Under the pieces are notes generated by a model. That model ran no database searches. It worked only from the letters and a program-made list of their open reading frames with translations, and was not told the origin of the DNA. Both the position numbers and the translations under genes were made by a program. A DNA stretch of 64,000 nt. Origin: Thermocrinis sp. (GTDB lineage Bacteria; Aquificota; Aquificia; Aquificales; Aquificaceae). Below are positions 31,539-40,540 of the stretch, piece after piece; position 1 is the stretch's first letter; every line of letters starts with the position of its first letter. The stretch is from positions 124,001-188,000 of the forward strand of contig JAJHRQ010000001.1 in NCBI GenBank assembly GCA_020833645.1, in the 5' to 3' direction.

Positions 31539-31973
31539 ATGCGCGCCTTAGTGCAAAGGGTAAAGGCTTCTTGGGTGGTGGTGGATGGTAAAGAGGTGGG
31601 GAGGATAGAAAAGGGACTGAACATACTCCTTGGGGTCAGGGTGGGAGACACGGAGGAAAAGGTGGATAAGCTGGTGGAAAAGGTGGTACATCTTAGAATA
31701 TTTGAGGACGAAAGGGGTAAGTTTCAGTATTCCCTCTTGGATGTGAAGGGCTCCGCCCTTGTGGTTTCCCAATTTACCCTTTATGCCAACACTCAAAAGG
31801 GCAGAAGACCCAGCTTTGAGGAGGCAGAAAGGCCAGAGAGGGCAAAAGAACTCTATGAACTCTTTGTCAAAAAGCTTTCCCAGTATGTGCCCGTGCAGAC
31901 GGGCATCTTTGGTGCCCATATGGAGGTTTTCATAATAAACGACGGACCCGTAACCATCCTCTTGGAGGTTTAA
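31539..31973 (+). CDS. dtd: D-aminoacyl-tRNA deacylase
   Basis: MRALVQRVKASWVVVDGK, VSQFTLYANTQKGRRPSF, GPVTILLEV. Confidence 0.95.
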   Translation: MRALVQRVKASWVVVDGKEVGRIEKGLNILLGVRVGDTEEKVDKLVEKVVHLRIFEDERGKFQYSLLDVKGSALVVSQFTLYANTQKGRRPSFEEAERPERAKELYELFVKKLSQYVPVQTGIFGAHMEVFIINDGPVTILLEV

Positions 31974-33835
31974 AGCTCAATCTCCAAGAGCATACCAAAG
32001 GGCACTGCCAGACCGCTCAGATATAGTGCTCCCGGTCTAAGAAGAGACAACAAGTTCAAAAGCCCCCACTCCCTCTCTCCAAAGAACACGGACACCGCGT
32101 CTAAGTCGTTCTTGGAAACCAAACGGAATGTGGCTTGTGTATTCATCTGAGAAAGTATGTATTTATTCAAGTTTGCGGGTCTTTGGGTTATGGCTATAAG
32201 ACCAACGCCAAACTTTCTACCCTCCAAGGCTATCCTCTTTGTCATCTGAAGGGCTATGTTTTCCCTTCCCGTAGGCAGGTCAATGGCACCCCTCTCCGGT
32301 GCAAAGTTGTGGGCTTCCTCAAGGACTATTATCCGCTTCCCACCATCCTTCATTGAAGAGAGGAATATCTCCTTCATGATAAGCCCCAATATGTTCAGGC
32401 GGGACTCTGGGTCTGCCAGATCGCTCAAATCACATATAACCAGTGGCCTTTTAGAATTCACCACCTCCTTTGCCCTTTCCCATATTAACCTTTGATTTCT
32501 CACTACATCCTCTCCAAAGTCCCTTGAAAGGAGCTCCAAAAGGTCTTCCGCCTGCTCTTTAATGTCCGCGGGTGCATCAAGGAGAATATCCTCCAAGCTC
32601 CTTTCACTGTAGGCGATCTTTTCCAAATCTGGCTTTAGGGACCTCCTTATTTTTCCAAAGAAAGCCTGCTCTTGGGAGGACCTTTCTCCCACTTCAAAGC
32701 CATACTTTTTGAACAACTCCTTTATGTCCTCCACACCTACGGGAAAGAGGGTATAGGGAAACTTCACATAATCTATGAATTCTTCGTTTTCTTTCAGCTT
32801 TTTGAAATACTCTCCAAAAAGGTCTATGACAAAAACTTGGGCGTAGCCTTTGTCCTTTATGTCCTTTAAAAGCCGAATTACAAAGGTGGTCTTCCCAGAA
32901 CCTGTGGTGCCAAGCACCGCCATATGCATGGTGGCAATCTTTGTAAGGTCCAAGTAGGCGGGTATGCCCACGCCAAAAAGCTTGCCCGCAAGGACCTTAA
33001 CCTCCATCGGATAGCCGGACATGTTGGTACCCATAAGTTCCTTCAATTCCTCCTCTTCTTCCATCCTCACAAACTGGGTGCCCACCTCCAAAGTCTTCAA
33101 GGGAACTCCAAAGAGGCTCTCCTTTTCCTTTTCCCTGTGCTTTATGTATTCGCAAACTACATGAACCTTCCCCACCTTTATCCTTCCACCCTCCTCCGCT
33201 ATGCTGTTTATGAGGGCAACTACCCAGTCCTTTTGAAGGCTACTTAGCTTTAGGCTAAGGCTATCAGGACCCAAGGTGCTAACGTTTCTGAGCTTACAGA
33301 CCAAAAAGCCCTTGTCTGTGTTTACCTTCAAGAAGCTCTCCTCAGGTAGGTCTTCCAAAAGCAAAACCTCCAACTCGGTGGAAGAGTGTGCCCTCAGAGC
33401 AACCGCCACTGTGTTTTTGTCCAGCTTAACAGACGATCCCTTTAAAAGCTCCCAAAGGGCCAAAAGCTCCTTTATCTTCTCTTCCTCTTCAACCAGCACC
33501 ATCGCTTCCAAGTTGCCTTCCACAGTGCCCGAGTAAGTGAGGTTTGCAGACCCCACATAGGCTTTTTTTTCATCCAATATCAAAAACTTGGCATGCAATC
33601 GTGGGTTTATGTACACTTCTCCACCAAAGTCCCTTATGGCTTTGAAAACCCTGTAGTCTGTGATTTCAAGGTCCCTTCTTTCTCCAGCCCTCAGGATAAC
33701 CTCCAACTTTACCTGAGGTTTGAGGGCTTTTATAAGTTCCTCCAAGACCTCCCCTTTGATCCACGGAGACGCAACCCTGAGGGAATTTTGAACTTGGGAG
33801 ATCTCCCTTATAAGTTTGTCAATGAGTGCGTCCAC
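31970..33835 (-). CDS. PLD-like nuclease fused to HerA-type ATPase
   Basis: HKD motif HAKFLILDEKKAYVGSANLT at N-terminus; HerA P-loop AVLGTTGSGKTTFVIRLL and RIIVLEEAHNFAP, ITQRPANLNKYILSQMNTQATFRL at C-terminus. Confidence 0.88.
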   Translation of the reverse strand: MDALIDKLIREISQVQNSLRVASPWIKGEVLEELIKALKPQVKLEVILRAGERRDLEITDYRVFKAIRDFGGEVYINPRLHAKFLILDEKKAYVGSANLTYSGTVEGNLEAMVLVEEEEKIKELLALWELLKGSSVKLDKNTVAVALRAHSSTELEVLLLEDLPEESFLKVNTDKGFLVCKLRNVSTLGPDSLSLKLSSLQKDWVVALINSIAEEGGRIKVGKVHVVCEYIKHREKEKESLFGVPLKTLEVGTQFVRMEEEEELKELMGTNMSGYPMEVKVLAGKLFGVGIPAYLDLTKIATMHMAVLGTTGSGKTTFVIRLLKDIKDKGYAQVFVIDLFGEYFKKLKENEEFIDYVKFPYTLFPVGVEDIKELFKKYGFEVGERSSQEQAFFGKIRRSLKPDLEKIAYSERSLEDILLDAPADIKEQAEDLLELLSRDFGEDVVRNQRLIWERAKEVVNSKRPLVICDLSDLADPESRLNILGLIMKEIFLSSMKDGGKRIIVLEEAHNFAPERGAIDLPTGRENIALQMTKRIALEGRKFGVGLIAITQRPANLNKYILSQMNTQATFRLVSKNDLDAVSVFFGEREWGLLNLLSLLRPGALYLSGLAVPFGMLLEIEL

Positions 33836-34229: not shown

Positions 34230-34324
<95 letters not shown>

Positions 34325-39234: not shown

Positions 39235-39263
39235 TTGACAAATTTTTTCCCTTATGCTATCAT
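39235..39263 (+). promoter_or_regulatory. Sigma70-type promoter of the porin gene
   Basis: TTGACA (39235-39240), 17-nt spacer, TATCAT (39258-39263). Confidence 0.75.
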
Positions 39264-39301
39264 TAAAACCATCCAAAAAAACTTTAAAGGAGGGTATCAA
39301 C

Positions 39302-40540
39302 ATGAGGAAGAGCCTTTTAGCCATGGCAGCACTGATGGGTGTTGCTACTTTGCCAGCCCACGCCTGGAGGGTGAACATTGACAAGGATACCTACGCAGAC
39401 ATCCTCTTCGGCGCCCAAATAACGGGAACAGTCCAGGGCAAGAGGACAAACGCAGACAAAGAAGAAACAAACTTTGCTGCGAAGTTGGTCAGCATAGGTG
39501 CAAGCGGGCAAGTGAATAAGCTGGTGTATTTTGGCATCTTAGCAGAAGCAGCAAAAAAACCTGGTCTTAGGGAATCATTCGTTGTTAGGGACGCTTTTGT
39601 AGGACTGAAGTTTGCGGATGAGTTTAGGGTCCAAGCGGGTGCAATGAGGATTCCCTTCTCCAGAATAACCCTAACCTCCTCCTACAACCTCCTCATCCCA
39701 ACCCAAGATGATAGGGGTATATATGGTGTGGGACTGTCTATAGACCCAATAGACGGACTAAGTGTTCGTGGTGATGCGGGTGAAAGAAACAGGGACGCAG
39801 GAATAGTCGTTTGGGGTATTGTGGCAGATGGAATTCTAAAGTACTACTTAGGCGTCACTGACGGTAGGTATGATAGGAGAGGAGGCTTCTTTGGTGCCAA
39901 CACCAAAGACAACCTCGCCTACACCATAAGGCTTCAAATTACCCCCACCATACTTGGCTTTAAGCCAGAAACGGGATACAGCCTTGCGGACACCTACCTT
40001 GGCAAGCAGAATGTTCATAACGTCGGCATAGGTTATAGGGTAGTGAAGGCAGAAACTACTGGTCTTCCGAGGAACTACTCAAAGACCGCCAAACTGTTTA
40101 CCGTGGATGTGATTTACGAACAAAAGTTTGGAGAACTAGTTCCTAACTTCCAAGTGGGATACATACAGGCAAAGGATGTGGCATATAGCTATAACCCTAC
40201 TACTCGTGTTGTATCCTATGGCAAAGCAACCCAAATTTATGCCCAAGGACAACTTCTGTATGACCAAGTGGTGGGCTTTGGAAAGCCAGCCTTGGCAATA
40301 AGGTGGGAGCAAAACAAGAATAAAGATAGGTTCAGCTTCGACACTAACACTGGAAGAACTTCTCCAATAGCAGGCGAACCCAAGAACACAAGGGTTGGCG
40401 TGTTTGTTAACTACTACATCAAGGGTCAGGATGCAAAGATATCCCTTGGTGTAGACACTGTAAACAGGAACAGAGACTCAAAGGGTGCAAACGGAAAGAA
40501 CTTCACCGACTTCACCCTCTACCTCCAAACCAGGTTCTAA
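39302..40540 (+). CDS. Outer-membrane porin-like beta-barrel protein
   Basis: Signal peptide MRKSLLAMAALMGVATLPAHA; alternating beta strands; C-terminal FTLYLQTRF ending in F. Confidence 0.8.
   Translation: MRKSLLAMAALMGVATLPAHAWRVNIDKDTYADILFGAQITGTVQGKRTNADKEETNFAAKLVSIGASGQVNKLVYFGILAEAAKKPGLRESFVVRDAFVGLKFADEFRVQAGAMRIPFSRITLTSSYNLLIPTQDDRGIYGVGLSIDPIDGLSVRGDAGERNRDAGIVVWGIVADGILKYYLGVTDGRYDRRGGFFGANTKDNLAYTIRLQITPTILGFKPETGYSLADTYLGKQNVHNVGIGYRVVKAETTGLPRNYSKTAKLFTVDVIYEQKFGELVPNFQVGYIQAKDVAYSYNPTTRVVSYGKATQIYAQGQLLYDQVVGFGKPALAIRWEQNKNKDRFSFDTNTGRTSPIAGEPKNTRVGVFVNYYIKGQDAKISLGVDTVNRNRDSKGANGKNFTDFTLYLQTRF

Follow-up and report, generated by a model that had tools for sequence, protein, structure and literature searches.

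A phospholipase D-type nuclease domain joined to a HerA-type ATPase in Thermocrinis: a candidate one-protein DNA pump-nuclease with chromosomal and defence-associated branches in the Aquificota

The window (the whole 64,000-nucleotide stretch of Thermocrinis DNA analysed) carries on its minus strand, at positions 31970..33835, an intact open reading frame of 621 residues with a GTG start and without internal stop, whose predicted product consists of a phospholipase D (PLD)-like nuclease domain placed ahead of a whole HerA (PLD-HerA hereafter). The D-Tyr-tRNA deacylase gene dtd (31539..31973, plus strand; PF02580, E 6.8e-56) is convergent with it, the two genes overlapping by 4 bases at their ends, and a tRNA-Ser (GGA) gene (34230..34323, plus strand) lies upstream and is divergent.

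The PLD-like domain (33464..33814, minus strand; residues 8-124) is recognized by the PLDc_2 family of Pfam (PF13091, E 9.7e-16), the PLDc active-site motif is matched at residues 79-101 (E 6e-6), and there is a further match to NgoFVII-type PLD (E 4.3e-8). Its single HKD motif, HAKFLILD (33572..33595, minus strand; residues 81-88), contains the sole HxK and the only HxK(x)4D occurrence of the protein, with H81, K83 and D88 invariant in the family, and is followed by a GSANLT stretch (33536..33553, minus strand; residues 95-100) in which S96, N98 and T100 are invariant. The combined pattern HxK(x)4D(x)6G[ST]xN did not occur once in 20,000 shuffles of the window protein, and each of the 67 real members of the family (67/67) has one HKD motif. 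The family PLD profile matches the nucleases NucT (6ehi, over residues 8-141) and Nuc (1byr, over residues 14-129), so that the domain aligns with single-HKD nucleases over most of its length; phospholipases match the same profile mostly near that motif.

The PLD domain is followed by a putative HAS-barrel (33116..33394, minus strand; approximately residues 148-240), which the window protein itself does not reach in the Pfam search for PF09378, and which was placed there through alignment with an Aquifex homolog (L056, E 9.6e-11 over residues 148-238); another homolog (L075) matches the same family at E 3.6e-5. The HerA ATPase region (31976..32986, minus strand; residues 284-620) is delimited by the DUF87/HerA family (PF01935, residues 284-490, E 3e-21) and by HerA models reaching residue 620. 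It includes a Walker A motif GTTGSGKT (32888..32911, minus strand; residues 309-316), a Walker B motif IIVLEE (32315..32332, minus strand; residues 502-507) with E506 and E507 invariant, and the HerA-specific motifs EGRKFG and QRP. An N-terminal single-HKD PLD domain joined to a HerA ATPase, as first proposed, is thus confirmed by the Pfam domains, the motifs and the intact reading frame, with one adjustment: the ATPase, initially called HerA/FtsK-like, is of the HerA type and not of the FtsK type. The family alignments show little or no variation at H81, K83, D88, S96, N98, E110 and the Walker residues, and each real member retains the catalytic residues of both parts. The window protein stays below the cut-offs of the canonical HerA model NF040819 (84.5 bits for a cut-off of 970) and of the anti-phage HerA models NF042943 (87 of 800 bits) and NF042944 (62 of 850). 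Structure prediction, based on a shallow alignment, gave a mean pLDDT of 53.7, with most of the ATPase core at approximately 60-91 and residues 1-276 below 50 and thus unreliable, as relatives of the PLD and HAS parts were nearly absent from the alignment.

HerA paired with a nuclease is an already known kind of system, of which the fused PLD form is a variant. In the HerA-NurA end-resection complex, a HerA ring ATPase with a HAS-barrel is likewise coupled to a nuclease, but NurA is a separate chain, whereas the PLD domain sits in the same chain as its motor, and the ATPase clade of PLD-HerA is separate from the canonical HerA of the phylum. The HerA-DUF4297 and HerA-SIR2 defence systems also combine HerA with an effector (DUF4297 being stacked on the HAS face), and the PADLOC models that match PLD-HerA best are HerAs of defence systems; they differ in that the effector of PLD-HerA, a PLD nuclease, belongs to the same chain, and in that subfamily A, to which the window gene belongs (see below), lies outside defence islands. 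In published structures of the HerA-NurA and HerA-DUF4297 complexes, the nuclease is stacked on the HAS face, with NurA atop the ring and DUF4297 on the HAS domains (PMC9960219, PMC11291478). On the PLD side, DrmC of DISARM, the NgoFVII/BfiI-type endonucleases and CglI/NgoAVII are PLD-superfamily proteins of restriction or defence. DrmC is weakly matched by the window protein (35 bits, below the NCBIfam cut-off of 133), and the Pfam search of this protein found no B3 DNA-recognition domain. In CglI, the PLD nuclease acts with an ATPase in trans (PMC5737866); the ATPase of CglI/NgoAVII is a superfamily 2 helicase, while that of PLD-HerA is a HerA. Finally, NucT and Nuc are solved nucleases that resemble most of the PLD domain, but they are stand-alone proteins without a motor. 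No description of the PLD-HerA fusion was found in the literature searched, which did not include the 2004 FtsK-HerA superfamily survey by Iyer and colleagues.

The fusion is old and almost restricted to the Aquificota. Among genomes at least 95% complete, and with families assigned by us as probable Aquificaceae (f1), Hydrogenothermaceae (f2) and Desulfurobacteriaceae (f5), PLD-HerA is present in 28 of 34 Aquificaceae (a few carrying subfamily B only), in 14 of 25 Hydrogenothermaceae, with fragments additionally in G078, and in 9 of 14 Desulfurobacteriaceae, one of these nine copies (G133) being broken. Outside the phylum, only 2 of the 255 genomes searched have it, G230 and the distantly related G164, corresponding to frequencies of 1/25 and 1/4 in their respective phyla; the copy of G230 is surrounded by transposase-like genes (read by eye), which suggests transfer. 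In viral contigs the family profile finds HerA relatives only and the PLD profile gives one short match (L179), in the phages searched there is no PLD-HerA and a single weak match to a terminase, and among the plasmids searched both parts are carried by Aquifex ece1 only, as a broken copy (L038, 11190-13116) whose annotation splits it into two genes and whose match contains an in-frame TAG. Genome G001 is Aquifex aeolicus, as this broken copy recurs on its second contig at coordinates identical to those in ece1. Two cases were set aside: an apparent absence in G038, where the contig terminates inside the 3' end of the gene, and a supposed member in G004 (L136), which is a different HerA without HKD motif. 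One metagenome bin (G054) has the gene in two forms, on contigs C23 and C76, with 95% and 96% identity to that of the window, and may be a strain mixture.

How did such a distribution arise? In a tree of the ATPase part, all sampled PLD-HerA form a single clade (100/99) that is separate from the canonical HerA of Hydrogenothermaceae and Desulfurobacteriaceae, from other Aquificota HerAs and from the HerAs of viral contigs; a single origin of the fusion, from a source other than the local canonical HerA, is therefore most likely. The whole-protein tree separates subfamily A (45 sequences; 100/99), including the window gene, from subfamily B. Subfamily A descent tracks the host families, with a Hydrogenothermaceae clade (16 sequences; 100/99) and an Aquificaceae clade (29 sequences; 93/91), the latter including one Hydrogenothermaceae sequence (G064) that was probably acquired by transfer. 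Subfamily B comprises the Desulfurobacteriaceae sequences, several Aquificaceae sequences and that of G230, and both subfamilies are present together in G018 and G023.

The two subfamilies also lie in different surroundings. Neighbours of subfamily A, for which dtd was identified by Pfam and coaE, obgE, rpmB, rpe and a comEA-like gene were read from sequence, are of a housekeeping type: the gene has dtd as its convergent neighbour in genera g1, g7 and g9, lies mostly 3' of coaE in g7, precedes rpe in two genomes of g4, and in the Hydrogenothermaceae genera g17 and g18 is followed by obgE, NurA and the comEA-like gene, with rpmB ahead of it in g18. Subfamily B, in turn, is accessory. It is found in type III-A CRISPR operons, directly 3' of csm5 in L075 (7819-9759) and one gene past csm5 in L076 (7055-9076), where PADLOC confirms Csm3, Csm4 and Csm5 for L076 and the L075 csm genes fall into the same clusters as their L076 counterparts; it adjoins type III restriction-modification genes in L065 and L067 (the proteins being confirmed by PADLOC), is preceded by a toxin-antitoxin-like pair in L066 (by eye), and has probably been transferred to another phylum (L172). 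The proposal of an anti-mobile-element role thus fits the loci of subfamily B, but not the housekeeping surroundings of the window's own subfamily A.

The subfamily A gene is under purifying selection, as dN/dS among four close Thermocrinis genomes is 0.08-0.13 for the whole gene and 0.14-0.18 for the PLD part, in the range of neighbouring genes. It can nevertheless be lost, and is not essential, as 6 of 34 near-complete Aquificaceae genomes do without it. In G048, coaE lies next to dtd, and the last codons of the intervening DNA encode MLVEIEL followed by a stop, which is the C-terminus of PLD-HerA, so that the remnant between the two genes reads as a deletion scar; in G044 there is no PLD-HerA at that locus and no match elsewhere in the genome. 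Conservation is thus wide yet incomplete, with one clean deletion, and not the strict conservation in all Aquificales that the preliminary description had said would speak for housekeeping repair.

The relationship with NurA and canonical HerA differs between families. Canonical HerA (approximately 510-550 residues) occurs in 38 of 39 near-complete Hydrogenothermaceae and Desulfurobacteriaceae genomes and in no Aquificaceae genome; in Aquificaceae, PLD-HerA is the only HerA found, save for a few unrelated accessory HerAs (e.g., L136, L137). In Hydrogenothermaceae, canonical HerA and NurA coexist with PLD-HerA, which is thus not their only end-resection machine. Pfam NurA has matches in 109 of 136 Aquificota genomes, among them each of the six other Thermocrinis (6/6). 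As for the window's own genome, a search for NurA, suggested at the outset, found none, either by family search or with the G053 protein as query, but contig C47 (66,772 bases) ends within hemG, near the site of NurA in G053, and its match to the G053 region reaches the last base. The absence is best explained as an assembly gap, because the contig stops beside the expected place, and a biological loss of NurA was rejected; the idea that the PLD domain replaces NurA is accordingly not borne out. Two genomes, G044 and G060 (L093, L177), have NurA and no HerA found in either, which indicates that NurA is independent of PLD-HerA. Other Aquificota HerAs of approximately 600-660 residues (L194-L201, L137, L138) were observed, several beside NurA-like proteins of 548-607 residues, and these are possibly further two-gene systems.

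We read PLD-HerA, with a probability of about 0.5, as a one-protein DNA pump-nuclease, subfamily A being a settled, dispensable element of chromosomal DNA maintenance and subfamily B the same machine in defence loci. The HerA part would form a six-membered ring threading double-stranded DNA, and the PLD domains, being fused ahead of the HAS-barrel, would lie on that side of the ring, the docking face of NurA and DUF4297 in other HerA complexes. Single-HKD enzymes such as Nuc and BfiI work as dimers. Nuc, NucT and BfiI are listed as nucleases, and two HKD domains combine into one active site (PMC8004604); since single-HKD nucleases of the NucT and Nuc kind pair in this way, dimeric nuclease sites on a hexameric ring, as first suggested, are a fair prediction by analogy. 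Paired PLD domains could thus build composite active sites that cut DNA as it exits the pore. Subfamily A would degrade or trim broken or aberrant chromosomal DNA, a useful but dispensable role, and its sister subfamily B would use the same machine in defence loci. A maintenance role for subfamily A is suggested by its positional stability, its descent with host families and purifying selection. We more tentatively propose that one fused family does two jobs within one phylum, as a chromosomal maintenance motor passed on vertically (the sole HerA of Aquificaceae) and as a defence effector associated with type III-A CRISPR and with restriction.

Subfamily A could also be anti-phage or anti-plasmid, a stand-alone HerA-nuclease immune protein that became fixed in the chromosome. 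We regard this as possible, with the odds somewhat against it, because its sister subfamily resides in CRISPR III-A and type III restriction-modification loci, its nearest PADLOC models are defence HerAs, and its presence is patchy within genera; the broken copy on plasmid ece1, the probable transfer to another phylum (L172) and the coexistence with canonical HerA-NurA in Hydrogenothermaceae point in the same direction. However, descent that follows host families, housekeeping neighbours kept across genera and ordinary purifying selection fit this poorly, and agree better with maintenance.

The lack of canonical HerA in Aquificaceae, most of which yet retain a diverged NurA, raises another question: has PLD-HerA taken the place of canonical HerA as partner of NurA, giving a two-nuclease machine? 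The gene order rpmB, PLD-HerA, obgE, NurA in Hydrogenothermaceae, of which the obgE-NurA pair is kept in several Aquificaceae, would be consistent with such a partnership, but we consider it unlikely, as G044 and G060 retain NurA without any HerA found, obgE stands between PLD-HerA and NurA, and the PLD domains would fill the face on which NurA docks. More improbable still is a DNA-transfer motor, serving donation or uptake, whose PLD domain would nick the DNA being moved. The same-superfamily ATPase TdtA serves DNA donation in Thermus (PMC5365140), and Hydrogenothermaceae have a comEA-like gene downstream of PLD-HerA, but no transfer genes were recognized beside PLD-HerA in the subfamily A loci examined.

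HerA motors and nucleases usually come together as separate proteins, whether for repair or for defence, and a natural fusion locks both together, so that the coupling of motor and nuclease can be studied within one heat-stable chain. The presence of a chromosomal branch and a defence-locus branch in the same phylum further offers a direct test of the interconversion of repair and immunity machines.

Two minor observations concern the surroundings of the gene. The stretch from PLD-HerA to carA varies among Thermocrinis, with extra genes in G053, others in G052 (L039, L041) and only the tRNA-Ser gene in the window. A fast-evolving porin-like gene at 39254-40540 of the window (plus strand) has a dN/dS of 0.46-0.52 and 68-82% identity to its Thermocrinis relatives, compared with mostly 93-98% for neighbouring genes.
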